A DNA stretch of 64,000 nt, taken from positions 1-64,000 of IMG/VR virus record IMGVR_UViG_3300023179_006747; one strand, written 5' to 3'. The notes under the pieces were generated by a model. It saw nothing but the letters and a program-made list of their open reading frames with translations, searched no databases and was not told the origin of the DNA. Numbering within the stretch: position 1 is the first letter of the stretch; the number at the start of each line of letters is the position of its first letter. Made by a program: the position numbers and the translations under genes. This stretch comes from a virus. Below are positions 8,683 through 40,246 of the stretch, one piece after another.

Positions 8683-8712
8683 GTGTAAGATTAGTTAGTT
8701 CTTTCACATTGG

Positions 8713-9098: not shown

Positions 9099-9130
9099 AG
9101 TAAACGAATCTCTTCGTCTCCATTTTAATA

Positions 9131-9753: not shown

Positions 9754-9760
9754 GTGTATA
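9754..9760 (+). promoter_or_regulatory. GTGTATA element, possible late promoter
   Basis: GTGTATA lies 8 nt before ATG 9769, matching the spacing of GTGTAAT elements before some virion genes. An in-frame GTG at 9754 falls inside it and is therefore unlikely to be the start codon. Confidence 0.35.
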
Positions 9761-9768
9761 TATTATAT

Positions 9769-11250
9769 ATGAAGGAAATTACACTTTTTGGCAAAACTGT
9801 TTATATTCTTGAGCAAGGTGTTGATTTTTATTCTTATGAATTAGCAGGATCTCAACCAAGTCCATGTGTTGAAGCTGGTGAACCTCGTACATTGAAAAAT
9901 AGACCAATTTCAATTTTACAAAATGTCGATGATGGACCATATGATACTAGTAATGGACAAGTTTTATGGGGAAAAACAATCTTTAATCCAGATGATGGTA
10001 GTGAAACCCAAATAAAAATATCAGAAATGTGGACTTATGGAGAACCAGAATGGAGAACGAGATATTATGAAGAAGAACTACCAGAACTAGGAAGAGCGTC
10101 CGCAAGACAATTGAGAGATTGGTGGCTATTCGAATTTACTGAAACAATGGATTATGATTGGTCTATACATTTAATTAATTATCTTTATTATGAGTATACA
10201 AGAATAAATGAAACATTTATGCATGATCATGTTCCAGGCGCTTCTACTGCTCCAATGGGAGCATCTTTATTAGCAGATATTAACGCCGCAGCAAAATATC
10301 AATTATTGTATTCTGCAGATATGGATGATCCTTTGCAAAAAGGTCCACTTATGTTTAAATCCAGAGGATTTGCGATTCAAGCATTTAAACACTTAATGGG
10401 AATAGAAGGGCCAGGATATTTTGACTATTATTTTAGAAGTAGAATAAATCTTAAAGGACATTTAATTACAACAAAAGATGGAAAGACGACTATAGAGATT
10501 AAATATTCTAATGATGATGGACGCAAAGGTGGTGCAAGAAATCAACGTCTTTGTGGACATGCATTTTTATTTATAAATTTAACTTCGAAAAATGAGGGTC
10601 AAGTACCTCCATCTATTCAAGTCGAATTAGGCGATGTTCTGGAAGCTGGTGATGAAAGCTATGTAATACAAAATTTATTTAATGTAATGGGTCCAACTCC
10701 TTCAGCAGAATTTTTAAGTTGGTGGAACAAATTATGTGATTATTACGAAAGTCTTCAAAACCAATACGAAGAAGATGCAGAATCTTCATATGATCCACCA
10801 GCAAATTATGATGAAAATGGAGTTAAATTTGGTATAATTCCTGGTGTAGATCTAAAAATTGATACTGATGGACCAGGAGTATTTTATGTTGGAGGTAGAT
10901 TTGGGTTTGGAACAAATCCTTATACTAAAGGTTTATGGCTTGGAAATCTTCGTTTTGAAGTAGGAGTAAATCCAAGAAATTATGCTAATCAAATATGGGG
11001 ACAAATGAGGGCGAGACAGCAAAATTATAGATCAACTGTTCAACAAAAAACCCAAACCAGAGTAAATAACGCCTCAGCTGGAGCTACTAATCCAACCGAC
11101 TTAGATATAAGTCAAAATCGAACATCTACTCCAAATGGCACAAGGCCATCAAATACAGACGCTGTACATGATAGCAATAAATCTGGCGCAAGTAACGGAG
11201 GATCTGATACTAGAAATTCCCAAAATAATCCTCAAGCTCCAGGCATGTAA
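9769..11250 (+). CDS. Possible structural protein with Asn/Ser/Thr-rich tail
   Basis: A 493-residue protein of unknown family. ATG 9769 is preferred over an in-frame GTG five codons earlier that overlaps a promoter-like element. The first 370 residues are globular, rich in Trp and Tyr, with SARQLRDWWLFEFTE near 110 and a Gly-rich part (GVFYVGGRFGFGTNPYTKG near 370). The last 60 residues are low-complexity and hold several Asn-X-Ser/Thr triplets (NAS, NRT, NGT, NKS, NGGS nearby). The size, composition and late-type element suggest a virion protein. Placed just before the glycosyltransferase island, its tail is a plausible glycosylation target. This is inference. Confidence 0.5.
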   Translation: MKEITLFGKTVYILEQGVDFYSYELAGSQPSPCVEAGEPRTLKNRPISILQNVDDGPYDTSNGQVLWGKTIFNPDDGSETQIKISEMWTYGEPEWRTRYYEEELPELGRASARQLRDWWLFEFTETMDYDWSIHLINYLYYEYTRINETFMHDHVPGASTAPMGASLLADINAAAKYQLLYSADMDDPLQKGPLMFKSRGFAIQAFKHLMGIEGPGYFDYYFRSRINLKGHLITTKDGKTTIEIKYSNDDGRKGGARNQRLCGHAFLFINLTSKNEGQVPPSIQVELGDVLEAGDESYVIQNLFNVMGPTPSAEFLSWWNKLCDYYESLQNQYEEDAESSYDPPANYDENGVKFGIIPGVDLKIDTDGPGVFYVGGRFGFGTNPYTKGLWLGNLRFEVGVNPRNYANQIWGQMRARQQNYRSTVQQKTQTRVNNASAGATNPTDLDISQNRTSTPNGTRPSNTDAVHDSNKSGASNGGSDTRNSQNNPQAPGM

Positions 11251-11289: not shown

Positions 11290-12255
11290 TTGAATATACT
11301 TTGGCCAGACATACATTTAAATCTTACGAAAAATATAGCAAAAGCTTTTAATAAACTAGGCCATACATTAATACTTCCAAGTTCAGATTATATACCAACA
11401 AATTTACCACCAAAACAATTTAATCAATGGGCGTGGAATACAACTTGGACTCAACAAAAAGCTGATCTTGAATTTCAACATAAAAATGTAAAAGTATTAA
11501 ATAAATATCAAATATTAGACCTTAAACCAGAAATAGTATTTATTACGAGTTTTGAAAGTCAATTTGAGATATTAAATGAAATTTGGCCTCACTTAAAAGA
11601 AAAGGGCAAATTAGCTTGTTATAGCGGTAATGATTATTGGGATGGTGCTTATCCATTTTATATTATTAAAAATTATCTATGCGCGGATTATGTTGGATAT
11701 TTTCTTGCTAATAAATATAAAGTAAATCACTTGTACTATAGACCTTGGGTTGATTACGATAGGTGTACTTTTGATGGACCAACAGATGGAAATATAGTTG
11801 GAATTTATATTTCAGAATATGAAAAAAATTTTAATCAAGAATACAAAATAAGCAAAAGTCTTCAAGAAGAAACTCCATATATAGATTATCACTATCATAC
11901 AAATAGTTCTCAAGAAGAATTAACTAAAAGCTTAAAATCAAGTATTGCAACTCAACATATTAAACATCTCGAAGGATATGGAATATCAGTAATTGAAAGT
12001 ATGGCTTGCGGAAGACCAGTTCTTATGCATCGTCAAATGGCTAAAAATAAAAGTTTAATGCAGTGGAGTATTGAAAATACAACAGCCTTATTCTTTGAAA
12101 ACAATTATGAATATATCGCAAAATTAAAAGCATTATACGAAAGCAAAGATTATAGATATTATTTACAAAATATGACAGCTAGTGTTATTCGCCAGATTAT
12201 AGATAATGACAGAGAAACAGAAAAGCTTGGACATTTCCTTAATAATCTAGTATAA
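11290..12255 (+). CDS. Glycosyltransferase, GT4-like
   Basis: First gene of the glycan island. The 321-residue product has a GT-B layout: the N-terminal half begins NILWPDIHLNLTKNIAKAFN with an acceptor-side Rossmann pattern, and the C-terminal half carries LEGYGISVIESMACGRPVL (near residue 230), the donor-binding E-x7-E-type motif of GT4 enzymes. It is shorter than most GT4 proteins (usually 350-400 residues). Translation appears to start at TTG 11290, placed 6 nt after TATAAT. No signal peptide. Donor and acceptor unknown. Confidence 0.75.
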   Translation: MNILWPDIHLNLTKNIAKAFNKLGHTLILPSSDYIPTNLPPKQFNQWAWNTTWTQQKADLEFQHKNVKVLNKYQILDLKPEIVFITSFESQFEILNEIWPHLKEKGKLACYSGNDYWDGAYPFYIIKNYLCADYVGYFLANKYKVNHLYYRPWVDYDRCTFDGPTDGNIVGIYISEYEKNFNQEYKISKSLQEETPYIDYHYHTNSSQEELTKSLKSSIATQHIKHLEGYGISVIESMACGRPVLMHRQMAKNKSLMQWSIENTTALFFENNYEYIAKLKALYESKDYRYYLQNMTASVIRQIIDNDRETEKLGHFLNNLV

Positions 12256-12264: not shown

Positions 12265-13101
12265 GTGAAAATCTGGCTCTGTGGTATTACCCAAAACGAG
12301 AAGCAGAATATTGACGATATGACTAAAGACATATATCAATATTTTGATGGGTTAATTTTTGTAGATGGTGGATCAACAGATGGTACGCTAGAAGTATTAA
12401 ATGCAAGAAAAGGCCAAGGAAAGATTATAAATCGAGAATGGTCAAATGACCATGATCTTCAAATGAACGGCTTCCTAAGAGCAAATGTAATGCAAAATGG
12501 CGATTGGTTCATTATTCGCGATAGCTGTGAAAGATTAGATATAGATTGGGTGAAGAATTTGCGTAATTTTATAGAAAATTTCTTAGAAAAGAATAAATTA
12601 AATAGCTGCGTTGACAGACAAAAAGCTTTTCTTGTTAAATATTTTGATGATATGATATTTCAAGGAAGCCCACATTGGGGTTTAAGTGGTATGAGAGGCG
12701 GATATATTGATCTTTATGAATACTATGCAAAAAATCAAAAGATGTTTGCATGGGAAGAAAGGCCATCTCAAAGAAAGCACTATATTGATAGTGATATGAA
12801 GTATTACTTTATTTATGGAAGATCAAATCATTGCGTTCTTCATTATTATGATAATGGCAAAACTCCAGAAAAATATCAACAACAAGAAAGTATAAGGCAA
12901 GCATTTAGATCTTTTTGTGAGACTTTAGGGATAAAATTCAATTTAGAGTCATTAAAAGAATACTGGCGAAATAATACTATCAATGATAATATGAAATTCT
13001 TTATTAATAATGAAAGACTCATAAGAAGATTTTATAGATTAAATATTTTAAATCATTCATTAGAGCAAATTGATTCATCAGAGGAATGGAGACTAGAATG
13101 A
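12265..13101 (+). CDS. Glycosyltransferase family 2-like
   Basis: A 278-residue GT-A fold enzyme. The start resembles GT2: KIWLCGITQNEKQNIDDMT followed by DGLIFVDGGSTDGTLEVL (residues 28-45), the strand and loop that hold the nucleotide. The later segment DWFIIRDSCERLD takes the place of the DxD metal site. The remaining part (GSPHWGLSGMRGGYIDLYEY) is unlike common GT2 members, so acceptor specificity is unknown. It starts with GTG 8 nt after a TATAAT box and overlaps the next gene with ATGA. Confidence 0.72.
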   Translation: MKIWLCGITQNEKQNIDDMTKDIYQYFDGLIFVDGGSTDGTLEVLNARKGQGKIINREWSNDHDLQMNGFLRANVMQNGDWFIIRDSCERLDIDWVKNLRNFIENFLEKNKLNSCVDRQKAFLVKYFDDMIFQGSPHWGLSGMRGGYIDLYEYYAKNQKMFAWEERPSQRKHYIDSDMKYYFIYGRSNHCVLHYYDNGKTPEKYQQQESIRQAFRSFCETLGIKFNLESLKEYWRNNTINDNMKFFINNERLIRRFYRLNILNHSLEQIDSSEEWRLE

Positions 13102-13997
13102 AATTAATAGATTGCTTCATGTATTTTAATGAAAAAGATATTGCATATCTTAGAATAAAAGAATTATATGATATTGTTGATTACTTTGTCATCAATGAAG
13201 CCACAAAGACTCATCAAGGCCAAGATAAAGAATTATCCTTTTGGAAAGATGATAGACTACAAGAATTCAAAGATAAGATCATCTACACACCAATAGAACT
13301 AGATGGAAGATTTGACGTTTTAATGCCAAAGTTTTTTCCAGATGCAAAGATTGGCGCAAAAGAGCACGAACAAAGAATAAGACTTTTTGAACAAATTGAA
13401 CCATTAAACTTAGACAATTTAGATACAATAATGATTTCAGATTGCGATGAAATTCCTAATAAAAATATATTTCAAGATATGATTAAGTATCCAATCGTTG
13501 CGCTTAATCAAATGTTTTTTGTTCATTACATTAATGTTTATACAAATAAAAATGTTACTGGAACAGTAGCTTGTAAATACGAAGGATTAAAATATTTAAA
13601 TACACTATGTTTTGGAATGGGTCTTCAAATTTTAAGAAGAGATAAAGATTTTATGCCAAGAATAGAAAATGGTGGATGGCACTATTCTTATATGGGTGGA
13701 GCAAAATCAGTTAGTCAAAAAGTAGTATCAACTTATGATGGCAATTTGAACTCTCAATGGAAAACAGAAGCAGCTGCCCAAAAATTAATTGATGAAAGTA
13801 TTAAAAATAAACAAAGCCCTTTTTCTCAAGAGCCAATTTCTATTTTAGATTTTAAATGTGCTACAATAGCTGACTTAAACTTCATAACAGCAAAAGAAGG
13901 TGGGTGGCAGAAATCATCAGCAAGATGCCAATTGCATCCAAAAATAATAGAATTAGACTTTAATAGAGATTTTGAAAATTTAAAATATAATAAATAA
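13098..13997 (+). CDS. Glycosyltransferase family 17-like (GlcNAc-transferase type)
   Basis: Resembles GT17, whose eukaryotic member adds the bisecting beta-1,4-GlcNAc of N-glycans. The 299-residue protein (start at the ATG in ATGA overlapping the previous stop) shows the family's order: KLIDCFMYFNEKDIAYLRIK with E for the glutamate after FN, VINEATKTHQG near 47, EHEQRIRLFE near 96, MISDCDEIPN near 116 with the DxD-like metal site, and GGWHYSYMGG near 195. Phages and marine bacteria are known to carry GT17 members. Acceptor unknown. Confidence 0.78.
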   Translation: MKLIDCFMYFNEKDIAYLRIKELYDIVDYFVINEATKTHQGQDKELSFWKDDRLQEFKDKIIYTPIELDGRFDVLMPKFFPDAKIGAKEHEQRIRLFEQIEPLNLDNLDTIMISDCDEIPNKNIFQDMIKYPIVALNQMFFVHYINVYTNKNVTGTVACKYEGLKYLNTLCFGMGLQILRRDKDFMPRIENGGWHYSYMGGAKSVSQKVVSTYDGNLNSQWKTEAAAQKLIDESIKNKQSPFSQEPISILDFKCATIADLNFITAKEGGWQKSSARCQLHPKIIELDFNRDFENLKYNK

Positions 13998-13998
13998 C

Positions 13999-14697
13999 AT
14001 GAATAATCCTTTTGATTTTTTTGATAGAATATATTGCATTAATCTTCTAGAAAGAGTAGATAAATGGCAACAATGTTTGGAAGAATTTAAAAAACTTGGA
14101 ATAGAAAATAAAGTGATTAGATTTAATGCAATTAAATTTATTGGTGAATTGCCAGAACAACTTAGATGGATTAATATTAGAGCTTGTGGATGTACAGCAT
14201 CTCATAGAGAAATTATAAAAATTTGTCATAATGAAAATGTCAAAAATGTATTAGTTTTAGAAGATGATGTAGAATTCCATAATGATCCAATCAAAAATTT
14301 AAGTTTATCAATAAATGAATTAAAAGATAAAAGTTGGGATATATTATATCTTGGAATGAATGTGACAGATGAAAAATTTAAACAACCTTTAGAAAGAATT
14401 AGCCCTAATTTACTAAGAATTAAAAGTGCATTGACTACGCATGCTATAGCATATAATAATTCTTCTTTTAAACCAATTTTAGAATATATACCAGAAGGAT
14501 TAGAAATAATTAATTGGCAAGCAAGAAATGAATCTTATGATGGATTTTTTATGAGGCATTTTTTAAGCCAAAATAAAGCATTTTGCACGAATGAATATTT
14601 GGCTACTCAAAGAGATAGTTTTTCAGACATTAATCTAGGGAATGCAACTTACGGGAAAGCTATTATGGAAAATTTTTATAAAATGAGACCATTATGA
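13999..14697 (+). CDS. Glycosyltransferase family 25 (LPS/collagen galactosyltransferase type)
   Basis: GT25 enzymes are usually beta-galactosyltransferases acting on lipooligosaccharide or, in eukaryotes, collagen. The 232-residue protein has the typical opening IYCINLLERVDKWQQCLEEF (residues 10-29), GCTASHREIIK near 57, and VLVLEDDVEFHNDP near 78 carrying the metal-binding acidic triad. The C-terminus includes TTHAIAYNNSSF, the usual acceptor-side segment. Length matches bacterial LOS transferases. It overlaps the next gene by 4 nt in the same operon. Confidence 0.85.
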   Translation: MNNPFDFFDRIYCINLLERVDKWQQCLEEFKKLGIENKVIRFNAIKFIGELPEQLRWINIRACGCTASHREIIKICHNENVKNVLVLEDDVEFHNDPIKNLSLSINELKDKSWDILYLGMNVTDEKFKQPLERISPNLLRIKSALTTHAIAYNNSSFKPILEYIPEGLEIINWQARNESYDGFFMRHFLSQNKAFCTNEYLATQRDSFSDINLGNATYGKAIMENFYKMRPL

Positions 14698-15503
14698 TAA
14701 CATTTTTTCAATTAGGCAAATATGGAGCAATTGGTAATCAACTTTTTCAATATGCTACATTATATTCAATAGGTAAAATAAATAATTATACAATTAAAAT
14801 TCCAAAAACTGAAGAACATTTTGATGAAGGAACAAACAGAATCCAACATTATTTTTTAAATTGTTTTGATAACATATTTGCAGAAATATTAACGGAAGAA
14901 GATAAAAAATTAATAAAATATAAAGCGCACGATGAAAATGCTATATCTTATAATCAAAATATGTTTAATATACCAGACTTTACAACATTAGAAGGATATT
15001 TTCAATCATATAAATATTTTATTGGTTTTGAACAAGATTTAAAAAAGCAATTTCAATTTAAAAAATCTATAATAAACTCTATAAATGCAAAGTATAATAT
15101 AAATTATAAAAATTTTTCTTCTGTACATTTAAGATATGGAGATTACGCGCATAGGCAAAATTATCATCCAATTATGGATAAAGATTACTATAAAAAAGCC
15201 TTTGAATTGCTAGACTCCTCAAACTATCTCGTATTTTCAGACAGCATAGAATATGCGAAAGTAATCTTTAATGATTTTAAAAATATTAATTTTATATTTG
15301 TAGAAAATAATCACGCATTTGAAGATATGTATCTTATGTCGGTATGTAAAGATAATATTTTAGCTAATAGCAGTTTTTCTTGGTGGGCGGCATGGCTTAA
15401 TGAAAATAATAAAGTAATAGCTCCAAAAAATTGGCTTGGCCCTGCTTATTATGGAAGATGGAATATAGAAGACTTAATACCAAAAGAATGGATTATCATA
15501 TGA
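14694..15503 (+). CDS. Glycosyltransferase family 11 (alpha-1,2-fucosyltransferase type)
   Basis: Transfers fucose from GDP-fucose to galactose in the family's known members. The 269-residue protein has GAIGNQLFQYATLYSIGKI (residues 10-28), the GDP-fucose-binding SVHLRYGDYA near 142, FSDSIEYA near 180, and NSSFSWWAAWLNENN near 227, which are the conserved GT11 motifs in order. It is immediately followed by a GT10 fucosyltransferase gene (ATGA overlap), and GDP-mannose 4,6-dehydratase, the first step to GDP-fucose, is encoded at 24.9 kb. Confidence 0.88.
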   Translation: MITFFQLGKYGAIGNQLFQYATLYSIGKINNYTIKIPKTEEHFDEGTNRIQHYFLNCFDNIFAEILTEEDKKLIKYKAHDENAISYNQNMFNIPDFTTLEGYFQSYKYFIGFEQDLKKQFQFKKSIINSINAKYNINYKNFSSVHLRYGDYAHRQNYHPIMDKDYYKKAFELLDSSNYLVFSDSIEYAKVIFNDFKNINFIFVENNHAFEDMYLMSVCKDNILANSSFSWWAAWLNENNKVIAPKNWLGPAYYGRWNIEDLIPKEWIII

Positions 15504-16357
15504 ATAAAAAAATATTTAACTTATTAGACAATAACTTCGCGCACGACAAATATGTTGTAGCAGGGATAGATTCAAAATATATCGAATGGGACAGATCATT
15601 AAAAGATTTAGAAAATCCATTCTTTTATTCGCATATAAGAATGCGCGATATTATTAGTAAAAATACAGACAAAGAAAAATCTTACGGACTTATTGTTGAA
15701 TCAAGAGCAATAGAAGGACAAATGTATGATTTTATTGAACCAATACTTCATAGATTTAATAAAGTATTCACTCATAATTCTGCATTTTTAAAAAAATATG
15801 AAAATTGTAAGTGGATTCCAGGAGGAGGAATATGGGTCGAAGGTAGAGAAGGCGCGCCACATGGAGAAGGACAAATGAAGATTTTTGATAAAACTAAATT
15901 ATGCTCAATGGTATCATCAAACAAACAAATGTGTTATTTACATCTAGTAAGATTACAAATTATGGATTATTTAAAAGACAACAATAAGATAGATAAATTT
16001 TTTGGTGGAGGTGGCCCAGGAGACGCGGGATGGCTTCCAATTTTTAGGACATTAAAAGATTATATGTTTTCTATAGTAATAGAAAATTTTGTAGACGATT
16101 TATATTTTACAGAAAAAATATTAAATTGTTTTGCTACAGGAGTTATACCAATATATCTCGGAGCAAAAAACATACATACAGTTTTTAATAAAGATGGAAT
16201 AATGCAATTTGATTCACTTGAAAAATTAAATGAAATTTTAAATAAAATCTCTCCAGAAGAATATTACTCTAGAATAAATGCAGTTAAAGAAAATTATGAA
16301 AAATGCTTACAATTTAAATCAATTGAAGATTATATTTATCTAAATTATTTATCATGA
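15500..16357 (+). CDS. Glycosyltransferase family 10 (alpha-1,3/4-fucosyltransferase type)
   Basis: Resembles GT10 fucosyltransferases that make Lewis-type antigens. The start (285 residues) is taken at the ATG overlapping the GT11 stop. In the C-terminal half, KDYMFSIVIENFVDDLYFTE (near residue 185) and KILNCFATGVIPIYLGAKNI match the GDP-fucose-binding FSIVxEN...YxTEK and G-x-x-P-x-Y-x-G-A motifs. The preceding SMVSSNKQMCYLHLVRLQIM also fits. No membrane anchor is present, as in bacterial FutA-like enzymes. Regiospecificity cannot be read. Confidence 0.82.
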   Translation: MNKKIFNLLDNNFAHDKYVVAGIDSKYIEWDRSLKDLENPFFYSHIRMRDIISKNTDKEKSYGLIVESRAIEGQMYDFIEPILHRFNKVFTHNSAFLKKYENCKWIPGGGIWVEGREGAPHGEGQMKIFDKTKLCSMVSSNKQMCYLHLVRLQIMDYLKDNNKIDKFFGGGGPGDAGWLPIFRTLKDYMFSIVIENFVDDLYFTEKILNCFATGVIPIYLGAKNIHTVFNKDGIMQFDSLEKLNEILNKISPEEYYSRINAVKENYEKCLQFKSIEDYIYLNYLS

Positions 16358-17220
16358 AAAACATTTTAATACTAGGAAAAGGTTATATAGGATCAGGTTT
16401 ATTTGAGTATATAAAAATAAAAGAAGATATTTCTGCAGAAATTAAATCAAAAAGTGAACTTAATTATCTAGATTATTCTATATTAGACAATTATATATTT
16501 AATGCAAAAGCGAAAGGGCTAGATTACATAATAAATTGCGTCGGATACACTGGGAGGCCTAATGTTGAAGGTTGTGAATATGACAAAGAGACATGCTGGA
16601 AATATAATGTAAATATTCCAATACTTTTTACTGAAATAGCTAATCATTACGATATACCAATTATTCACGTAAGCAGTGGATGTATATATACTGGATATGA
16701 GAAAGATTATAGCGAAGAAGATGAACCTAATTTTGGTTTATATAATAATAGTAGTTTTTATAGTAAAACAAAACATGCTTGCGAAATTTCTTTAAAAAAT
16801 ACTAATAGTTATATATTTAGGATAAGAATGCCGTTCTCCTATAAATCTTCTAATAGAAATTATATTAATAAAATATTACAATATGATAATTTAATAAGTT
16901 ATAAAAATAGCTTAACATGCGTTGAGGATTTAAATGAATTCGTATATAAATTTATAAATTTAAAAGATAAACCTAAATTTGGAATATTTAATGTTTTGAA
17001 TTCTGGATCAGCCACGGCAAAAGATGTTGTTAATATTTTACAAAAATATAAATTAGAAAACAAAAACTGGAAATTTTTAGATCAAAAAGAAATGAATTTT
17101 AAAACGCCAAGAAGTAATTGTGTTTTGTCTGTACAGAAAATTGAAAAATTAAAATTAGAATTACCTAACGTAATAATTAGTTTAGAAAATAGTATTAAAA
17201 ATTTTCATAATAATTTATGA
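16354..17220 (+). CDS. NAD(P)-dependent sugar-nucleotide epimerase/reductase (extended SDR)
   Basis: A 288-residue extended short-chain dehydrogenase. The Rossmann start NILILGKGYIGSGLFEYI (residues 3-20) binds NAD(P). INCVGYTGRPNVEGCE, then HVSSGCIYTG with the catalytic Ser, and Y-S-K-T-K near 137 carry the active site. The nearest types are RmlD (dTDP-4-keto-rhamnose reductase) and GDP-fucose synthase-like reductases. With GMD in the same island, formation of a GDP-6-deoxyhexose is attractive, but the substrate is unproven. It sits between the GT10 and GT15 genes with 4-nt overlaps on both sides. Confidence 0.8.
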   Translation: MKNILILGKGYIGSGLFEYIKIKEDISAEIKSKSELNYLDYSILDNYIFNAKAKGLDYIINCVGYTGRPNVEGCEYDKETCWKYNVNIPILFTEIANHYDIPIIHVSSGCIYTGYEKDYSEEDEPNFGLYNNSSFYSKTKHACEISLKNTNSYIFRIRMPFSYKSSNRNYINKILQYDNLISYKNSLTCVEDLNEFVYKFINLKDKPKFGIFNVLNSGSATAKDVVNILQKYKLENKNWKFLDQKEMNFKTPRSNCVLSVQKIEKLKLELPNVIISLENSIKNFHNNL

Positions 17221-17978
17221 ATAATAAGATTATTTATCTTTTAAGAGATTCACCATTAGATTTAAAACTTTTTGATAAAAGTATAGAACTTTTAAAAATT
17301 AATTTTTTACCTACAAATAATTATCCAATAGTAATTTTTCATGAAAATATTCCAATAGATATTTTTGAAAATATCCAAAACAAACATCAAATTAAATTCA
17401 ATATACAAAAAATAAACTTTGAAATACCTAAATTTTTAGATGAACAAAAAGTTCCCGCAGAAGTCATGACGAAATCAATCGGATATAGACATATGTGCAG
17501 ATTTTATGCTGGAGAAATGTATTTTCAAGAAATACTTAAAGATACAAATTATTATTTAAGACTAGATAATGACTCTTTTTTCACTGAACCCATGCAATAT
17601 GATTTATTTAAGCATATGGAAGATAATAATTATATCTATGGATATAATGCTACTCTAGGAGATAATCCGCAAGTTACAGTAGGTCTTTTAGAAGCATGCC
17701 AAGTATATAGCCAAACAAGAAAAGTTATAAAAAATATTAACGATATACCATTTCCTCAAGTATATTATACAAATTTTGAAATTGCAAAATTTAATTGGTT
17801 TTTAACTCCAGAATATTTAGATTTCTATAATTTTATAGATATGTTAGGAGGAATTTACCAATACAGATGGGGAGACCATATAATTAAATTTTTAGGCTTA
17901 TCAATGCTTTTAGAAGATAAATATAAGCATCATTTTAAAAATTTACCATATGTGCATGGCAATTTTTTTAACTATTAA
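17217..17978 (+). CDS. Glycosyltransferase family 15-like (alpha-1,2-mannosyltransferase type)
   Basis: Strongly patterned like fungal KRE2/MNT1 mannosyltransferases, which extend O- and N-linked mannose chains. In order: SIGYRHMCRFYAGEMYFQE (near residue 85), YYLRLDNDSFFTEPMQYDLF (near 113) with the Asp cluster, NFEIAKFNWFLTPEYLDFY (near 184) including the nucleophile-candidate Glu, and GGIYQYRWGDHIIKFLGLSM (near 208), then HVHGNFF-like PYVHGNFF at the end. The 253-residue length covers the catalytic domain only; no signal anchor is present. GT15 is rare outside fungi, apart from scattered viruses and bacteria. Confidence 0.8.
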   Translation: MNNKIIYLLRDSPLDLKLFDKSIELLKINFLPTNNYPIVIFHENIPIDIFENIQNKHQIKFNIQKINFEIPKFLDEQKVPAEVMTKSIGYRHMCRFYAGEMYFQEILKDTNYYLRLDNDSFFTEPMQYDLFKHMEDNNYIYGYNATLGDNPQVTVGLLEACQVYSQTRKVIKNINDIPFPQVYYTNFEIAKFNWFLTPEYLDFYNFIDMLGGIYQYRWGDHIIKFLGLSMLLEDKYKHHFKNLPYVHGNFFNY

Positions 17979-18847
17979 TGAATGTTATTTTATTTAATTT
18001 TGGTAAAAACCATTTATATTTCCAAGATTGTATAAATCAGATTCTTAATTATAATCACGATATAAAAATATATTTTATTGGAAATGAAAATCAATTTATA
18101 AATGGCGCAAATTTTATAAACATTAATGAATTCAATAATCAAGATCTTATAAAAGAATTTAAAAATATTTCATTTTATGAAGATGATGGAAATCCATTAT
18201 GGAGAGCATCAATGGCTAGATTTTTTTATATTGAATCTTTTATTAAACAAAATAATCTTGTAGATGTATTTCATTTTGATAATGACGTTATGATATATGA
18301 AAATTTTAATAAAATTTTAAATAGTAAAAATGCTACAGATGAAAATATTATTACTCCAACGAATGAATTTAATTTAACCTGTGGAATGATGTATATTAAA
18401 AATGATAATTCTATTTCAAAATTAAACGAAAAACTTTTCGAAAAATTAAAACTTGGCGTGGGCGGTATATACAACAACTATCCAAAAAGAGGTTCGAGTT
18501 TAGATCCATTTATGGTTAATGAAATGACCATACTTAAAATTATTCAAGAAGAAAATAAAAACTTATTATCTTTATTTCCTATACTACCCACTGATTTAAA
18601 TTTTAATCAATACGGAATTTGTTTTGATCCTTCTTCTTGGGGTCAATGTATTGGAGGAACAAATTGTGGACACGGGCCAGGTTGGGCTGGAGAACATCAT
18701 TATATTGGTAGAGAAATATTAAAAAATAAATATAAAATATTATTTGAAAATAAAAAACCAGAAATATTAGATTTAAATATAAATATTAAATATCCTTTAT
18801 TCAATCTGCATATACATTCTAAAAATTTAAATATATTTTTAAGTTAG
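17978..18847 (+). CDS. Putative glycosyltransferase (GT-A-like)
   Basis: A 289-residue protein without a clear family. It looks like a GT-A enzyme: the N-terminal strand NVILFNFGKNHLYFQDCINQ, a DVFHFDNDVMIYENF segment near residue 95 as a DxD metal site, and a TCGMMYIKNDNS strand near 136 as seen on the acceptor side. The C-terminal CGHGPGWAGEHHYIGRE has several His and Gly that may close the donor site. Starts directly at the stop of the GT15 gene. The substrate is unknown. Confidence 0.6.
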   Translation: MNVILFNFGKNHLYFQDCINQILNYNHDIKIYFIGNENQFINGANFININEFNNQDLIKEFKNISFYEDDGNPLWRASMARFFYIESFIKQNNLVDVFHFDNDVMIYENFNKILNSKNATDENIITPTNEFNLTCGMMYIKNDNSISKLNEKLFEKLKLGVGGIYNNYPKRGSSLDPFMVNEMTILKIIQEENKNLLSLFPILPTDLNFNQYGICFDPSSWGQCIGGTNCGHGPGWAGEHHYIGREILKNKYKILFENKKPEILDLNINIKYPLFNLHIHSKNLNIFLS

Positions 18848-18884: not shown

Positions 18885-19481
18885 ATGAAAAATTTTCCTA
18901 AACCATATTCAAATGAAGGAGAAATGCTTCCGTATGAACGATTTAAACTATTTAATTGGATATATGACGCGAATCCTAAGGCTATAATAGAAATTGGATC
19001 TGGAGTTGGTCATGGTTCTACTTACTATATGGCAGAAGCATTAAGGCAAAGAGGCGAAAAAGGCATAATTTATAGTTGCGATCCAAAAAGATCAATTTAC
19101 CAAGATTTACTAAATGATTATCCAAGTATTAAATACTATCCAATCAAATCTTTTGAACTTATACAAAACTTAATATTAAATAAAATTGAAATAGATTATA
19201 TATTTTTTGATGGACCAGAGATTCCAGACCTTGCATTAGAAGATATTAAAACTCTTGAACAATATATTAAATCTGGTACATATTTTAGCATGCACGACTG
19301 GTGTACGGAACCTAGAAAATATGATAATCATATATCAATTAAATCATTAAAAATAAAACCATATTTACAAAATTCAAATAAATGGGAAAAGATAGAGGAA
19401 CTGTCAGGATTACAAAAGAACAGTAATTTTGATGATATGCCGTATGATTCTGTTGGATTATGTTTATATAGATTTAAATAA
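18885..19481 (+). CDS. SAM-dependent methyltransferase-like protein
   Basis: A 198-residue Rossmann-fold protein. AIIEIGSGVGHGSTYYMAEA (residues 33-52) is the SAM-binding motif I, IIYSCDPKRS supplies the acidic motif II, and IDYIFFDGPEIPDLALEDIK (near 104) is the motif IV region, as in class I methyltransferases of the Methyltransf_24 kind. The His-Asp in FSMHDW near 140 is shared by sugar- and lipid-modifying members. It may O-methylate a sugar of the glycan. It has its own promoter and is followed by the GT47-like gene with a 1-nt overlap. Confidence 0.7.
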   Translation: MKNFPKPYSNEGEMLPYERFKLFNWIYDANPKAIIEIGSGVGHGSTYYMAEALRQRGEKGIIYSCDPKRSIYQDLLNDYPSIKYYPIKSFELIQNLILNKIEIDYIFFDGPEIPDLALEDIKTLEQYIKSGTYFSMHDWCTEPRKYDNHISIKSLKIKPYLQNSNKWEKIEELSGLQKNSNFDDMPYDSVGLCLYRFK

Positions 19482-20362
19482 TGGAACTAATTTGCGGAGA
19501 TAAATTTCAACAGTTGGCAGATATATCAATATTGATTGATAATGAAGATAATTACAGATCAGGAATTATACAAAATCAATTAAAAAATATAAATACAAAT
19601 CTACATATATTCAATAATGATAATAAAAATTATATTCCAGATAGCATAAAATATGCAAAAAAAATCTTTGTATATACAGATATTTTAAATTTTTTCTTTA
19701 AAAATATTCTTCCTTTTATACAAACAAAATTTATTTTAATAAGTCATAACAGCGATTTAGGGGTATCCTCTGAATATGAAAGATTTTTAAATTCAGATAA
19801 GATTATAAAATGGTATTGTCAAAACGCCGCATTTAATCATGAAAAGCTTATTCCAATACCTATAGGAATCGCGAATAAGCAATGGGAACATGGAAATGAA
19901 GAAATTTTTAAAAAAAATTATAATGATTTTAAAGATAAAAATAAAGCGTTTGGATGTTTTAATATAACTACAAATAGTTCATTTAGAACGCGAATTTGGG
20001 AAATTTGTAGTCAAAGTAAAATATGTGATATGTACTCAAAATTAGATTTTCAAACTTTTGTCAAAATTATGTCTAAATATAAATATACGCTTTGCCCAAT
20101 AGGAAATCCAGTCGCAGGATCAGCAGGAGATAATCATAAAGTATATGAATCATTATATGTAAATAGTATACCTATAGTTTTTGAGAATCAAAAAATAATT
20201 TATGATAATATATATAAATATTTGCCAGTAATATTTGCGCAAGATGTTAATATCCTGTCAGATGAAATTAAATTAGAAGAAGAATTCTTAAAAATAAAAG
20301 AAAAGTCTAAAGAAAAAATTGATTTCAATTATTGGAAAAATATAATAAATAATAACTTATAA
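19481..20362 (+). CDS. Exostosin-like glycosyltransferase (GT47-type)
   Basis: A 293-residue GT-B-like enzyme. The first half is divergent, but the donor-binding end shows SKYKYTLCPIGNPVAGSAGD (near residue 203) followed by KVYESLYVNSIPIVFENQKI, matching the exostosin signature in which an acidic residue precedes the A/V-x-x-G-x-I-P strand. KLIPIPIGIANKQWEHGN near 125 is another shared segment. GT47 members transfer GlcA, Gal or Xyl in eukaryotes. Donor here is unknown. No membrane anchor. Confidence 0.62.
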   Translation: MELICGDKFQQLADISILIDNEDNYRSGIIQNQLKNINTNLHIFNNDNKNYIPDSIKYAKKIFVYTDILNFFFKNILPFIQTKFILISHNSDLGVSSEYERFLNSDKIIKWYCQNAAFNHEKLIPIPIGIANKQWEHGNEEIFKKNYNDFKDKNKAFGCFNITTNSSFRTRIWEICSQSKICDMYSKLDFQTFVKIMSKYKYTLCPIGNPVAGSAGDNHKVYESLYVNSIPIVFENQKIIYDNIYKYLPVIFAQDVNILSDEIKLEEEFLKIKEKSKEKIDFNYWKNIINNNL

Positions 20363-20366: not shown

Positions 20367-20672
20367 ATGGTAACGATAAATTACAAAGGCAGGACCGCAA
20401 ATCATTTTATACAGCATATTGTTGGGCATTTTCTTGCTAGGAAATATAATTTAAAGTTGACACAAGAGTCTCCAATTAATAATCCAACTATAAAATTTAA
20501 TGATATAAATAATAGCCAAATAGGGCGAAATAGGATTATTGTTGATGATACCAACTGGCTGGATATAGTTTTTAATAATTTTAAATATGATTCACCATCT
20601 TTTTATTTAGATGGATTTTTTAATAATAGAAAATTTTTTGAATTTTTTGAAGAAGATATCAAAAACATATGA
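20367..20672 (+). CDS. N-terminal half of a GT11-like glycosyltransferase (split gene, part 1)
   Basis: A 101-residue protein that starts like GT11 or related GDP-sugar transferases: GRTANHFIQHIVGHFLARKYNL (shortened here: GRTANHFIQH at residue 8) corresponds to GxxGNxLFQ. It ends where such enzymes continue into the nucleotide-binding half. The next gene, overlapping by 4 nt in a different frame, supplies the missing half. The two products may work as a heterodimer, or the gene may have been broken by a frameshift. Confidence 0.5.
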   Translation: MVTINYKGRTANHFIQHIVGHFLARKYNLKLTQESPINNPTIKFNDINNSQIGRNRIIVDDTNWLDIVFNNFKYDSPSFYLDGFFNNRKFFEFFEEDIKNI

Positions 20673-21136
20673 TTATACAATATGATCATTCAATAAATCA
20701 AAATGACGTTATAGTTCATTATAGAATTGGAGATCTGACGCAAATACCTAGATGTATTCTTCCATTAGAATATTATTGTGAAGCTTTAGAGTCTATACAA
20801 TTTAATCAAGGCTATATTACTTCAGACACACTAGAGCATGAATTATGTCAAAAATTAATAAAAAAATATAATTTAATTCCACTTGCTTTGAGTCCTTCGG
20901 ATACAATTGCCTATTGCAAAAATTTTAATAAAATTATCCTTTCAGAAGGAGGCTTTTCTTGGTCGATTGGCTTTCTAAGTAAAGCTAAAGAAATTATCTG
21001 TAATCAAAGAGAGTTGATTTGGCATGGGGATATATTTTTTGAAAAATGGAAAAAATTAAGATGGGATTATTCACCAGATGCAATTTACGATAAAGTTCAA
21101 TTAAAAGAATATAAACCAATAAAATTAAATGACTAA
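20669..21136 (+). CDS. C-terminal half of a GT11-like glycosyltransferase (split gene, part 2)
   Basis: A 155-residue protein beginning with a short strand and then DVIVHYRIGDLTQIPRC (near residue 13), the counterpart of the GDP-binding H-x-R-x-G-D segment of GT11. GYITSDTLEHELCQ and KIILSEGGFSWSIGFLSKAK (near 90) replace the S-x-S-S-F-S-W motif. It lacks the N-terminal lobe, which is encoded just upstream. Overlaps the acetyltransferase gene by 8 nt. Confidence 0.5.
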   Translation: MIIQYDHSINQNDVIVHYRIGDLTQIPRCILPLEYYCEALESIQFNQGYITSDTLEHELCQKLIKKYNLIPLALSPSDTIAYCKNFNKIILSEGGFSWSIGFLSKAKEIICNQRELIWHGDIFFEKWKKLRWDYSPDAIYDKVQLKEYKPIKLND

Positions 21137-21542
21137 TGTAATACTAGGCAAAAATACAGTTATTTCAAACTATACAAATCTATATGGATGTAAGTTAGGA
21201 GATGAAGTATTTATTGGCCCATTTGTAGAAATTCAAAAAAATTCATTTATTGGCGATAAAACTAGAATTAGTAGTCATTCTTTTATTTGCGAAGGAGTTG
21301 AGATAGGAATAAATTGCTTTATTGGACATGGAGTAATGTTTACCAATGATAAATTTACTGAAAATAAAAATGATTGGATTTTAAGAAAAACTAAAATTGG
21401 CAATAACGTGAGGATAGGAAGTAATTCTACAATTTTACCTGTAAATATCGGAGATAATGTAGTCATTGGAGCAGGATCAGTAGTTACAAAAGATATTCCA
21501 TCAAATACAATTGTTTATGGTAATCCAGCGAGAATTAAATAA
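21129..21542 (+). CDS. Hexapeptide-repeat acyltransferase (WbpD-like)
   Basis: A 137-residue left-handed beta-helix protein made of hexapeptide repeats such as VFIGPFVEI, IGINCFIGHGVMFTND, IGNNVRIGSNSTILP and IGDNVVIGAGSVVTKDI, ending VYGNPARIK. This is the form of sugar N- or O-acetyltransferases that use acetyl-CoA, trimeric in known cases. The gene order acetyltransferase, dehydrogenase, aminotransferase matches the WbpD-WbpB-WbpE set that makes 2,3-diacetamido sugars in Pseudomonas. The role as a 3-N-acetyltransferase is inferred from context. Starts before the previous stop and ends 1 nt over the next start. Confidence 0.85.
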   Translation: MTNVILGKNTVISNYTNLYGCKLGDEVFIGPFVEIQKNSFIGDKTRISSHSFICEGVEIGINCFIGHGVMFTNDKFTENKNDWILRKTKIGNNVRIGSNSTILPVNIGDNVVIGAGSVVTKDIPSNTIVYGNPARIK

Positions 21543-22414
21543 TGAAAAAAATAGGATTAATAGGATTTGGATATTGGGGTAAAATAATTTATAAGAATTT
21601 AAAAGAATTGGGTTATTCAATTACTATAACTGATAAATTTTCTATTGATAAAAGTTTAATAAAAAATGATGATAAGATAGTTGATTCATATATGGAAATT
21701 AAAGATGTAGATAAAGTTTTTGTTGTTACTCCTTGTGAATCTCATGAAAAAATAGTGTCCTATTTCCTAAATAAGAAAATAGATGTATTTTGCGAAAAAC
21801 CGCTAACTTTAAATTTTGATCAATCTAAGAATTTATTTAATATTGCTCGTAAAAATAATGCAAAATTATTTGTTGATTGGATATTTATATTTAATGATGC
21901 AATTAATTACATTAAACACTTATTAGAAGCAAATACTCATGGTAAACTATTAAATATATCTATGAGGCGATTAAATAAAGGGCCAATTAGAAACGATGTA
22001 AATGCAAGATATGATCTGACGTCGCATGATTTATCAATTTTAATTTATTTAATAGATATAGAGATTAAAAGAAATTTTTTTTATGACTATCGTAAATTAT
22101 CAACTTCTTTTAAAGAAGATAGTTGCATAGGAGTTTTAGAATTTAAAAACAATATAACATGCACAATTGAATCCAGCTGGGAACATCCAATAAAAGACAG
22201 ACAATGCATATTTGAATTTGAAAATGGTATTTTAATTTGGGACGATATAAGTCAAACAATAAAAGTTAATAACATTGAAATAAACTTTCCGAAAACAGAA
22301 TCTCCACTGAAAAAATCATTGAAAACTTTTATAAATTCTACTTTTGACACCAATCAGATAAAACGGATAACACTTGAAGTCGCTAAAATTTTAGAAAAAA
22401 AATATGAAAATTAA
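21542..22414 (+). CDS. Gfo/Idh/MocA-family sugar dehydrogenase (WbpB-like)
   Basis: A 290-residue NAD(P)-dependent oxidoreductase. KKIGLIGFGYWGKIIYKNLK at the N-terminus is the nucleotide-binding G-x-G-x-x-G, and VDVFCEKPLTLNFDQSK-like sequence near residue 82 (FCEKPLTLN) gives the conserved EKP with the catalytic Lys. The C-terminal alpha/beta domain continues with CTIESSWEHP. Next to an aminotransferase it likely oxidises a sugar C3 hydroxyl to a ketone before transamination, as WbpB does. Slightly shorter than usual (about 320-340). Confidence 0.83.
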   Translation: MKKIGLIGFGYWGKIIYKNLKELGYSITITDKFSIDKSLIKNDDKIVDSYMEIKDVDKVFVVTPCESHEKIVSYFLNKKIDVFCEKPLTLNFDQSKNLFNIARKNNAKLFVDWIFIFNDAINYIKHLLEANTHGKLLNISMRRLNKGPIRNDVNARYDLTSHDLSILIYLIDIEIKRNFFYDYRKLSTSFKEDSCIGVLEFKNNITCTIESSWEHPIKDRQCIFEFENGILIWDDISQTIKVNNIEINFPKTESPLKKSLKTFINSTFDTNQIKRITLEVAKILEKKYEN

Positions 22415-23522
22415 ATTTAACGACTTAAATGCTCAATGGAAAATAATAAAAGAGTCTTGCGAAAAAGATATAAATCTATTATTTCAAAATTCAGATTTTA
22501 TCTTAGGAGAAAAAGTATTAGACTTTGAAAGTAATTTTTCTAAATTTTGTAATGTAAAATATTCAATAGGAGTTTCTTCAGGCACAGATGCCATAAAATT
22601 AGCTGGGTTATCATTAATCGAAGATACTTTATCAAAAAATATTTTGATATTTATTCCAGTTAATACATTTATTGCGACATATATTGGCTTAAAAGATGCT
22701 TTTCCAAATGCAAAATTTATTTTAATAGATTGCGACGATTTTTATCAAATAGATACAAATATTTTAGAAGAACAAGTCTTAAAAAATCGAAAAGATTTTA
22801 ATCATTGCATCATTGCTCCTGTTCATCTTTATGGATATACGGCGAATATGAGTAAAATAAAACAAATATCTAAAAAAAATAATTGTTTTATATTAGAAGA
22901 TTCATCTCAAGCCCATGGCGCAATTGATGATGAAAATAATTTAGCTGGATCAACGGGAGATGTGTCAGCGTTTTCTTTATATCCTGGCAAAAATTTAGGC
23001 GCAGCAGGAGACGCGGGCATAATCACTACAAATAATTTAAAAATTTTTGAAAAAATTAAATTACTTAGAAATTACGGATCAGTAAAAAAATATAGTCACG
23101 AAATCTTTGGATTTAATTATAGATTAGATACAATGCAAGCCATTATTTTAAATCAAAAATTAAAGTTTTTAAATGAATGGAATTCAAAAAGAAGATTGAT
23201 CATAAATGAGATTTGTCTGAATGTAAGTAATCAAAAAATTATTATGCCGCAGACGCCAAATTATTGCAAAATACCAGCACATCATATTTTTCCAGTAAGA
23301 GTAAAAGACAGAGAAAATTTTATTAATTATTTAAATAATAATTTAATTGAGAACGGAATTCATTATCCTGTCCCACTAAATAAACTAGACTTTATAAAAG
23401 CAGATTTTATATCCAATAATAAAAGCAATATTTTTTGCGATGAATTAGTCAGTTTACCAATACATCCATTTATTTCCCATCTAGAAATAGAAAAAATTAT
23501 TAGTATTTTACAAAAATATTAA
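22404..23522 (+). CDS. PLP-dependent sugar aminotransferase (DegT/DnrJ/EryC1/StrS, WbpE-like)
   Basis: Adds an amino group to a keto-sugar nucleotide using glutamate. The 372-residue protein shows the family order: GVSSGTDAIKLAGLSLI (near 56) for phosphate binding, ILEDSSQAHGA with Asp166 near the pyridine nitrogen, and FSLYPGKNLGAAGDAG (near 190) with Lys196 as the Schiff-base lysine. Typical length. Overlaps the dehydrogenase gene by 11 nt. The three genes 21129-23522 form a compact cassette for an amino sugar. Confidence 0.9.
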   Translation: MKIKFNDLNAQWKIIKESCEKDINLLFQNSDFILGEKVLDFESNFSKFCNVKYSIGVSSGTDAIKLAGLSLIEDTLSKNILIFIPVNTFIATYIGLKDAFPNAKFILIDCDDFYQIDTNILEEQVLKNRKDFNHCIIAPVHLYGYTANMSKIKQISKKNNCFILEDSSQAHGAIDDENNLAGSTGDVSAFSLYPGKNLGAAGDAGIITTNNLKIFEKIKLLRNYGSVKKYSHEIFGFNYRLDTMQAIILNQKLKFLNEWNSKRRLIINEICLNVSNQKIIMPQTPNYCKIPAHHIFPVRVKDRENFINYLNNNLIENGIHYPVPLNKLDFIKADFISNNKSNIFCDELVSLPIHPFISHLEIEKIISILQKY

Positions 23523-24051: not shown

Positions 24052-24840
24052 ATGAAAAATGCAACAATTTTAGTCACAGACTTAAATCATCTAAAATATA
24101 TAAAATATAATATCAACAATATTCGCCAGAATATAAAAAATACAGATATTGTAATACTTACAAATGAAAAAGATTTTCCATTAATAAATGAAGAATTAAA
24201 AGAAAAAAATGTATTTATATATTCCGTAGAAAATAAAAATAGTCCCTATTATTTAAAATATCATATTTTTGACAAATATTTTAAAAAATGGGATAATCTG
24301 TTATATTTAGATTGCGACACAATGATTTTAGAAAACGCATCTAAGCTATTTGATTTATTGAACAACGAGAATGAAATGTTTGTAGACTTTGAAGAGCATA
24401 AGATATTTGATTTTTTTAATTTATCTAACGAAGAAATAGAACAAAATCAAGACCAATTCAAAAGTTTATTAAATGAAAAAAATATTAATAAAATTGGATT
24501 TAATAGTGGTATACTTTTGTATAAATCTTCACTTATATCGGAAGAGAATGCGGATAAACTAAAATCTTATCATTTAAAATATGCGGATATTAATAAACAT
24601 GGCAAAGAACAAAATATATTATGGAATCTTAAGCCAGGAACAGACCAACCAATTATAAATTTAGTTTTTTTAGAAAAATGCAAAAAAGTACCAAATAACT
24701 ATTTTAGTTATTGGGGAAGATATAATTCAAATAGTCTAATTTTACATTTTTGTCGTTGGCATGCCCCATGGTTTAATGAAGAATTTAATGAAAAAATAAA
24801 TAAAAGATACGTAGATTATTTCAATGAAAATAAGAATTGA
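24052..24840 (+). CDS. Glycosyltransferase family 8-like
   Basis: A 262-residue retaining GT-A enzyme by appearance. LYLDCDTMILENASKLFDLL (near residue 83) carries the DxD metal site in the typical GT8 context, KIGFNSGILLYKSSLIS (near 144) is the conserved NSG strand, DQPIINLVFLEKC (near 200) the D-Q motif, and LHFCRWHAPWF near the end supplies the metal-binding His. Members include glycogenin and LPS galactosyl/glucosyltransferases. Donor here unknown. It stands in the glycan island just before the GDP-mannose dehydratase. Confidence 0.75.
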   Translation: MKNATILVTDLNHLKYIKYNINNIRQNIKNTDIVILTNEKDFPLINEELKEKNVFIYSVENKNSPYYLKYHIFDKYFKKWDNLLYLDCDTMILENASKLFDLLNNENEMFVDFEEHKIFDFFNLSNEEIEQNQDQFKSLLNEKNINKIGFNSGILLYKSSLISEENADKLKSYHLKYADINKHGKEQNILWNLKPGTDQPIINLVFLEKCKKVPNNYFSYWGRYNSNSLILHFCRWHAPWFNEEFNEKINKRYVDYFNENKN

Positions 24841-24878: not shown

Positions 24879-26024
24879 ATGAACCAAAACATAAAAGAAA
24901 CATATTATGGTAAAAAAATAGATACATCAAATATTTTAAATATTGAAGATGCAAGTAGGCTAATCAATGGTAAAAAAACTATAGTAGTTACTGGAGTTAC
25001 TGGCCAAGATGGAAGTCATATGATTGATTTTTTGCTTAAAAACACAGATTATCTTATTTTTGGCGGAGTAAGAAGATTGAGCGTTTATAATCACGAAAAT
25101 ATTAGACATATAAAATCTGATAGATTTTATCTCATTAATTTTGATTTAACTGATTCTCACGCTATAGCTAGAACAGTAGAGAAATTACAGCCAGATTATT
25201 TTATTAATTTTGCAGCACAAAGTTTTGTAGCTAGTAGTTGGGATTTTTCTAGACAGACTTGGCATACCAACTCAACGGCAGTTTTAGATATTCTAGAAGC
25301 AATTAGATTATACAAACCGTCTTGTAGACTTTATCAAGCTGGTTCTAGTGAAGAATTTGGAAATGTACAATACTCTCCGCAAGACGAAAATCATCCTTTA
25401 AAACCAAGAAGCCCCTACGGAGCAAGTAAAGCCGCGTCTAGACAATTAGTAAAAGTTTATAGAGAATCTTATGGAATATACGCAATTCAAGGTTGGCTAT
25501 TTAATCATGAAGGCATAAGAAGAGGCGAAGAATTCGTTACCAGAAAAATTACTAAAAATGTAGCTCGTATTTTTAATGCTATTAAAAATAAAGAAGATTT
25601 TAGTCCTCTTGAGTTAGGCAATATCGAAGCTAAACGAGATTGGAGCGATGCAGAAGATTTTGTTGAAGGAGTCTGGATGATGTTGAATCAAGATAAATAT
25701 AATCCTAATTATTCTGGAGAACCAAAAGAATATATATTCTCCTCAAATGAAACTCATACAATTAAAGAATTTGCAGAAAAAGCATTTAAATATGCGGGAA
25801 TTGAGGGAGAATGGGTCGGAGAAGGTGAACATATTATGTTTATAAATAAAGATAAAAAAACATTAATTCAAATTAATCCTAAATTTTATAGGCCAGCAGA
25901 AGTAGAATTATTACTTGGAAATTCAAATAAAGCAAGAGAAGAATTGAATTGGAAACCTAAAATTTCATTTGACAACCTTGTTGAAAAAATGGTAAAATGG
26001 GATATTGAAAAATACAAATCATAA
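24879..26024 (+). CDS. gmd: GDP-mannose 4,6-dehydratase
   Basis: Converts GDP-mannose to GDP-4-keto-6-deoxymannose, the precursor of GDP-fucose, GDP-rhamnose and GDP-perosamine. The 381-residue extended SDR has VVTGVTGQDGSHMIDFLL (near residue 36) for NADP binding, NFAAQSFVASSW (near 110), YQAGSSEEFGNVQYSP (near 150) with the catalytic Ser/Glu pair, RSPYGASKAASRQLVKVYR (near 175) with Tyr-x3-Lys, and FNHEGIRRGEEFVTRKI, the GDP-mannose dehydratase hallmark. YRPAEVELLLGNSNKA near the end is also typical. Some 30 extra N-terminal residues are unusual. Together with two fucosyltransferases it implies a fucose-type sugar. Confidence 0.95.
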   Translation: MNQNIKETYYGKKIDTSNILNIEDASRLINGKKTIVVTGVTGQDGSHMIDFLLKNTDYLIFGGVRRLSVYNHENIRHIKSDRFYLINFDLTDSHAIARTVEKLQPDYFINFAAQSFVASSWDFSRQTWHTNSTAVLDILEAIRLYKPSCRLYQAGSSEEFGNVQYSPQDENHPLKPRSPYGASKAASRQLVKVYRESYGIYAIQGWLFNHEGIRRGEEFVTRKITKNVARIFNAIKNKEDFSPLELGNIEAKRDWSDAEDFVEGVWMMLNQDKYNPNYSGEPKEYIFSSNETHTIKEFAEKAFKYAGIEGEWVGEGEHIMFINKDKKTLIQINPKFYRPAEVELLLGNSNKAREELNWKPKISFDNLVEKMVKWDIEKYKS

Positions 26025-32965: not shown

Positions 32966-32972
32966 GGTAAAA

Positions 32973-40232: not shown

Positions 40233-40246
40233 TATATCATAAATAA

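Follow-up and report, generated by a model that had tools for sequence, protein, structure and literature searches.

The virus record IMGVR_UViG_3300023179_006747 from IMG/VR is 64,111 bases long, and its positions 1 to 64,000 (64 kb, the window in what follows) were analysed. The window encodes a tape measure protein (phrog_4211, 1e-49), a DnaE-like polymerase and a RecA-like gene. Its source is an abundant, uncultured lineage of tailed phages, in which genomes of relatives reach 140–172 kb. An island of about 20 genes for glycan synthesis lies at about 11.3–27.0 kb. A preliminary description, made from the sequence alone, had pointed to five glycosyltransferases (GT) in it, of families GT17, GT25, GT11, GT10 and GT15, but the array is larger than was given there, with GT4, GT2, GT47-like and GT8 enzymes, methyltransferases, DegT, Gfo/Idh, a hexapeptide acyltransferase and GDP-mannose 4,6-dehydratase (GMD) as additional members. 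Islands of this kind are already known; what is new is that GT15 is widespread in the glycan islands of phages and forms a mobile component of them.

Relatives were collected with a RecA alignment, which gave 297 viral contigs, the best 80 of them with RecA 85–97% identical. The island was compared in 32 loci of the lineage, over as much as 20 kb of sequence preceding RecA; these loci are fragments related to one another and not independent. GT4 and GT2 of the window type (81–94% identity) are present in 13 of the 32 loci, referred to below as backbone relatives, and the other loci carry other sets. The upstream protein and the genes through the end of the GT15 region are as follows.

9754..11250, + strand: protein of 498 amino acids (aa) directly upstream of the cassette, with Ser/Thr/Pro/Asn/Gly-rich C-terminal tail; candidate glycan acceptor
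11290..12255, + strand: GT4-type glycosyltransferase, first gene of the conserved proximal block (PF00534, 1.3e-6; 13/13 backbone relatives)
12265..13101, + strand: GT2-type glycosyltransferase (PF00535, 1.1e-4, slightly below cut-off; 13/13 backbone relatives)
13086..13997, + strand: GT17 glycosyltransferase (PF04724, 7.8e-16; 54–91% identity in 13/13 backbone relatives)
13999..14697, + strand: GT25 glycosyltransferase (PF01755, 3.1e-9; 48–90% in 12/13)
14694..15503, + strand: GT11 glycosyltransferase (PF01531, 2.1e-22; phrog_2644, 1.5e-64; 62–81% in 12/13)
15500..16357, + strand: GT10 glycosyltransferase (PF00852, 2.3e-10)
16354..17220, + strand: short-chain dehydrogenase/reductase (SDR) of the NRS/ER (3,5-epimerase/4-reductase) kind, RmlD-like, last gene of the lineage-typical module (PF04321, 1.2e-17)
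17217..17978, + strand: GT15 glycosyltransferase of Kre2/Ktr type, first gene of an apparently imported module (PF01793, 9.8e-32)
17978..18847, + strand: probable GT-A glycosyltransferase with DND motif (no family above cut-off)

Family assignments and catalytic residues

All five families had been named correctly, as the Pfam matches for GT17, GT25, GT11, GT10 and GT15 exceed the curated cut-offs, and the signature residues of each family are retained in the window copies on alignment. The DxDE motif of GT17 (D119, D121, E122) is invariant across 18 aligned sequences, and the EDD motif of GT25 (E88-D89-D90) across 14. GT11 keeps HxRxGDY, with H145, R147, D150 and Y151 invariant across 18 sequences and N225-S226 also kept, and R151, E195 and N196 of GT10, including the donor-site E-N motif, are invariant across 15. 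Each gene–gene boundary from GT25 through GT15 has a 4-base overlap, as is usual within an operon, in agreement with the single phage operon proposed earlier. The five genes are not strictly consecutive; they span six genes, with the SDR at 16354–17220 between GT10 and GT15. No membrane segment was predicted by hydropathy in any cassette enzyme of the window.

Of the five families, only GT15, whose mannosyltransferases have been studied in yeast cell walls, is best known from fungi. The PF01793 match spans positions 59–323 of the 325 in the profile, and the match to Kre2 has an E-value of 2.9e-19. When aligned with Kre2 and Ktr4, the window protein keeps the N-F-E glutamate (E188), Y90 and R115 of the Y and R motifs, D117/D119, the metal-site His (H247) and the RWGD motif. 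The glutamate is lost in some other viral GT15 proteins (Asp in L004, Phe in L012). An AlphaFold model based on 20 sequences from phages and archaea reached a pLDDT of 91.9. In Foldseek, its top 11 matches are all GT15 (E 3e-18 to 2e-16) and the next family follows at 1.6e-8. Kre2 and CmsA were recognised as the best solved matches, with TMq of 0.88 to Kre2 with GDP/Mn; the solved GT15 structures are fungal only. The phage enzyme has the fold and aligned catalytic residues in common with fungal Kre2/Mnt1 and Ktr4, but it is only 253 aa long, has no membrane anchor or Golgi targeting, carries D-N-D in place of the fungal E-P-D, and is about 21–35% identical to them, depending on the alignment. 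GDP-mannose is probably its donor, with mannose transferred in alpha linkage.

Island variation and distribution of GT15

GMD was found in 32/32 loci, mostly 79–94% alike, as the conserved distal border of the island. The genes of the 13 backbone relatives stand in the same order, with GT17 in 13/13, GT25 and GT11 in 12/13 and GT10 in 10/13. Median identity to the window is 87% for GT4, 88% for GT2, 84% for GT17, 59% for GT25, 71% for GT11, 30% for GT10, 71% for SDR (4 loci) and 89% for GMD; GT15 is in 0/13. The island is hypervariable in the sense that its content is swapped at one locus between close relatives inside a conserved border. GT15 was also absent from 50 close relatives of the window lineage (0/50) in a search that was positive on GT15-bearing records elsewhere. 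The GT-A gene at 17978–18847 has no counterpart in the lineage (0/32 loci) versus a relative in 8/81 GT15 loci, and the GT47-like gene at 19481–20362 has a relative in 13/81 GT15 loci. Because GT15 and the GT-A gene are missing in the lineage but found in other GT15 loci, the cassette reads as a mosaic in which a lineage-typical front (through the SDR) meets, at about 17217, a back end common to other phages. Fold comparison placed the GT-A product in no GT family, its model resembling GT6/GT8 folds only weakly (TM about 0.4). One inherited unit of five families, which the preliminary description had implied by speaking of such a set, was rejected: the families are not kept together in close relatives or in GT15-bearing viral contigs, where GT10 occurs in 2/50 and GT17 in 1/50.

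No match to GT15 was obtained in 50,697 catalogued phage records (two different queries) or in 72,556 plasmids. A single-sequence scan of viral contigs also gave zero matches, and alignment-based scans of them found 26 and then at least 109 other GT15-bearing contigs; negative single-sequence scans therefore mean little. In a Pfam check, all 27 records behind the first 26-contig set were above cut-off, and GT15 was absent from 14 control genomes. Terminase was present in 9 of the 50 longest GT15 contigs, 6 of them above cut-off, and the GT15 contig L010 carries replication genes of T4 type, with T4-like nuclease and clamp genes among them, as read by eye. Among cellular genomes, one pattern scan gave GT15 on one archaeal contig, and a search of the corresponding phylum gave it in 1/87 genomes; this limited survey does not show absence from bacteria. 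This fragment (L028, 3–596) lies at the contig edge of a metagenome-assembled genome beside a trp operon and is 41% identical to the window GT15. No paper on GT15 in phages was found within the literature collection searched, and phage GT15 looks unreported so far.

In a GT15 tree of 77 sequences, with fungal sampling of three sequences only, the fungal ones form one clade about 1.6 changes per column away, and the 74 phage and archaeal sequences are on the opposite side. With eukaryotic members included in this way, the window GT15 did not group with fungi, and the very long branch between the phage branch and the fungal sequences argues against a eukaryotic origin. The window GT15 groups with L030 and L031 (support 99), its nearest relatives at 48–50% identity. 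In a second lineage that shares the replication module (RecA 56%), GT15 occupies the corresponding position upstream of GMD-RecA-DnaB (L066, L096, L103). The GT15 of this sister lineage is on another branch, and its joint grouping with the window GT15, and with it orthology, was rejected by the approximately unbiased (AU) test (p 0.0089); as the tree was a quick one and some of its branches are long, the result carries moderate weight. The GMD-RecA locus seems to have gained GT15 more than once. Four phage loci (L069, L080, L082, L090) contain two distinct GT15 genes each, placed in different subclades of the tree.

The genes downstream of the GT-A gene, up to the RecA-like marker, are as follows.

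18885..19481, + strand: S-adenosylmethionine methyltransferase (Methyltransf_24; PF13578, 3.3e-7)
19481..20362, + strand: GT47 (exostosin)-like glycosyltransferase (PF03016, 6.9e-4, below cut-off)
20669..21136, + strand: short GT11-like protein (PF01531, 0.035 only, below cut-off)
21129..21542, + strand: hexapeptide acyltransferase (PF00132, 2.1e-21)
21542..22414, + strand: Gfo/Idh/MocA sugar oxidoreductase (PF01408, 3.4e-13)
22404..23522, + strand: DegT/DnrJ sugar aminotransferase (PF01041, 2.5e-63)
24052..24840, + strand: GT8-type glycosyltransferase (PF01501, 9.3e-9)
24879..26024, + strand: GMD, conserved distal border of the island (PF16363, 3.1e-104; TIGR01472, 4.8e-97, yet below the equivalog cut-off)
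26337..27044, + strand: GT2-like glycosyltransferase (PF13704, 8.5e-5, below cut-off; 75–91% in 5/13 backbone relatives)
27084..28226, + strand: RecA-like recombinase, conserved marker after the island (297 relatives in viral contigs)

The open reading frames (ORFs) 20367–20672 and 20669–21136 possibly represent a split GT11-type enzyme. Glycosyltransferase-like genes also lie beyond the island, at 1370–2455 and 38316–41398 (phrog_2170 for 38316–40232). A tmRNA gene at 8711–9099 (Rfam RF00023, 109.6 bits; ARAGORN) is the sole RNA family in the window above the gathering score; its tag peptide, AKTAKYKGHISARVSLVEMTASVA, is unusually long, and an HNH-endonuclease-like ORF (9167–9718, motif only) follows it immediately. 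DNA polymerase III alpha is seemingly split into a PHP-like N-terminal ORF (32964–33719) and a polymerase ORF (35143–37740) with other genes between them, one exonuclease-like; this arrangement recurs, part for part, in L066 and L103.

Sugar donors, candidate carrier and competing explanations

The SDR is probably an enzyme of 6-deoxy-L-hexose donor synthesis, as judged by homology. Its best solved relatives are the 3,5-epimerase/4-reductase 4qqr (3.8e-25) and UDP-L-rhamnose synthase 7jid (1.3e-18), and the likeness is to plant rhamnose epimerase/reductase. The Cys of GCI, YSKTK (YxxxK) and the Lys of RNYINKI are all aligned, and we take the Cys and Lys beside YxxxK to be the epimerase-type residues. 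SDR relatives (at least 36% identity) occur in 7 lineage loci, with RmlB (dTDP-glucose dehydratase) in 6/7 of them versus 2/25 others (Fisher one-sided 2e-4). RmlB also accompanies GT10 of the window type (64–70%) in 4/4 loci and the other GT10 type (28–30%) in 0/6 (p 0.005); as the loci are related, both p values overstate independence. Three RmlB proteins of such loci pass the NCBIfam equivalog cut-off. The window itself has no RmlB. GMD is present there, and a GDP-fucose synthase was neither identified among the cassette genes nor recognised elsewhere in the window. GMD plus SDR as a GDP-fucose pathway was reduced to fucose or rhamnose, in view of the solved relatives of the SDR and the co-occurrence with RmlB. 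The donor may be L-rhamnose, with RmlB supplied by the host or encoded out of view, or L-fucose, made by GMD together with the SDR. Co-occurrence of the SDR and window-type GT10 with RmlB favours L-rhamnose no less than L-fucose. L-rhamnose is, to our knowledge, not a donor associated with GT10. The GT11 substrate may be a 6-deoxyhexose or another sugar, its alpha-1,2-fucosyl activity being only predicted. An IMP dehydrogenase/GMP reductase-like gene (5009–6118, by motif; 85–98% identical in lineage relatives covering it) could feed the GDP-sugar supply.

The protein at 9754–11250 has no PHROG or Pfam match. Its counterparts beside GT4 show 23–26% or undetectable similarity, versus 81–88% for GT4 itself, and between close relatives they are replaced or diverged past recognition (L184, L189, L193, L201, L214, L215). 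For S+T+P+G+N content, the C-terminal 80 residues of proteins of this type rank among the highest 3% of 503 ORFs in 10/10 loci, a composition that fits a surface or virion protein carrying glycans.

We propose a hypervariable glycan-assembly island, an explanation held with about equal belief and doubt. Soluble glycosyltransferases would act in order in the host cytosol, the conserved proximal block of GT4, GT2, GT17, GT25 and GT11 making a shared stem. In one subtype, GT10 and its SDR would add a 6-deoxy-L-hexose. The distal genes (GT15, the GT-A enzyme, GT47-like, methyltransferases, amino- and acetyl-sugar enzymes) would give a strain-specific decoration, in which GT15 would transfer a single sugar in a retaining reaction, probably mannose in alpha linkage from a GDP-mannose donor. 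A phage protein would most likely carry the chain, with the fast-changing S/T/P/N/G-rich product of 9754–11250 as first candidate, so that the virion surface varies. The families, motifs, synteny, variability, mosaic origin and lack of membrane segments are observed here, and the donors, acceptor, purpose and order of action (from the order of genes) are inferred. Several points weigh against this explanation. The virion presence and glycosylation of the candidate carrier, like the donor of each enzyme, are inferred only, and the tail composition of this carrier is also like that of other virion proteins (the J-like tail protein scores 0.47). The order of genes is not necessarily the order of action, and the GT25 and GT11 medians (59, 71) break a smooth identity gradient. 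Transporters or other targets could lie outside the 64-kb window, and the loci compared are non-independent fragments.

Remodelling of the host surface, in which the enzymes would rebuild the host O-chain or capsule during infection and exclude other phages, is a real possibility, though one that we regard as unlikely. It was proposed for similar hypervariable glycosyltransferase islands of pelagimyophages (PMC7029224). GT11 of Chelatococcus adjoins an ABC transporter, and GT25, GT11, GT10 and DegT are common in bacterial polysaccharide synthesis. However, the cassette of the window showed no flippase, polymerase, lipid-carrier sugar transferase or exporter; besides the lack of membrane segments in its enzymes, ORFs that look multi-spanning number only 5/559 in 32 relatives. 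Host carriers could still serve the phage. Placement of the sugars on modified DNA bases is quite improbable. Hypermodification of DNA with diverse glycans by phage glycosyltransferases is reported (Pyle 2024, as cited in PMC12619734), but beside the cassette no enzyme that hydroxymethylates bases was noticed, and a surface glycan would better account for so many families that extend chains, for the genes of donor synthesis and for outer genes prone to swapping.

The preliminary description had proposed a branched, fucosylated, mannose-containing glycan, with bisecting-GlcNAc and Lewis-type steps as known from eukaryotic pathways. A complex multi-step glycan agrees with the gene content, the five family calls are correct and the solved GT15 relatives are all fungal; the named product is nevertheless improbable. 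The fucose, bisecting GlcNAc and galactose assignments exceed the evidence: the cassette has no identified GDP-fucose synthase, the SDR and GT10 subtype go with RmlB, and no N-glycan core enzyme was seen that would go with a bisecting role of GT17, a function named after animal MGAT3. Relatives of GT10, GT11 and GT17 occur in cultured cyanophages, and of GT11 and GT10 in bacterial plasmids; together with the distance of phage GT15 from fungi and the set not being kept together, this speaks against the eukaryote-like character. Recent capture of GT15, and of others, from a fungus or other eukaryote is very improbable. That the family is best known from fungi, with fungal structures only, would suit it, but the fungal clade is remote in the tree, and GT15 occurs also beside an archaeal trp operon.

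A wider proposal extending the glycan-assembly island is offered as speculation, rather doubtful as a whole: environmental tailed phages would be a large GT15 reservoir that either predates the fungal branch or runs parallel to it, with GT15 as an interchangeable outer step of virion glycans, a protein carrier co-diverging with the sugars, and L-rhamnose used by GT10 of the subtype. If the island does make a virion glycan, it would be the phage equivalent of glycan-based antigenic variation. GT15 in more than 100 phage contigs changes the view of where the family may come from, and the phage proteins offer small soluble versions for study. The conserved start and swappable end form a natural series in which gene content could be matched with glycan structure and host range once a phage is cultured.

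Relation to known systems

Synechococcus cyanophage RB11-B carries GT17 beside a gene annotated as fucosyltransferase, DegT, two GT2, GT11 and an FkbM methyltransferase, and its cluster also holds dTDP-4-dehydrorhamnose 3,5-epimerase and epimerase/dehydratase genes. A GT10 relative (37.7%) is present in Synechococcus cyanophage S-SM2. Unlike the window phage, both are T4-like, and GT15 is unmatched in the catalogued phage records. The host-recognition island of pelagimyophages is likewise variable and glycosyltransferase-rich, in aquatic phages and between conserved flanking modules, but it holds mostly GT8 and tail fibres and lies between VrlC and gp14 (PMC7029224), while the island of the window precedes GMD-RecA and has a conserved proximal block. 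Virion proteins of mycobacteriophages are glycosylated at their C-termini by phage glycosyltransferases (Freeman 2023, as cited in PMC12619734); as far as that citing source describes them, these systems have few enzymes, in contrast to the long variable assembly line with a candidate acceptor in the window.

Chloroviruses are eukaryotic algal viruses with different enzymes and a known acceptor, whereas the acceptor in the window phage is a candidate. PBCV-1 has its own GDP-L-fucose and GDP-D-rhamnose synthesis and its own glycosyltransferases, and the glycan of chlorovirus capsid protein consists of a conserved core with virus-specific outer sugars (PMC9614988). The conserved core, variable outer sugars and virus-made donors of chloroviruses (PMC9614988) parallel what is proposed for the island of the window.

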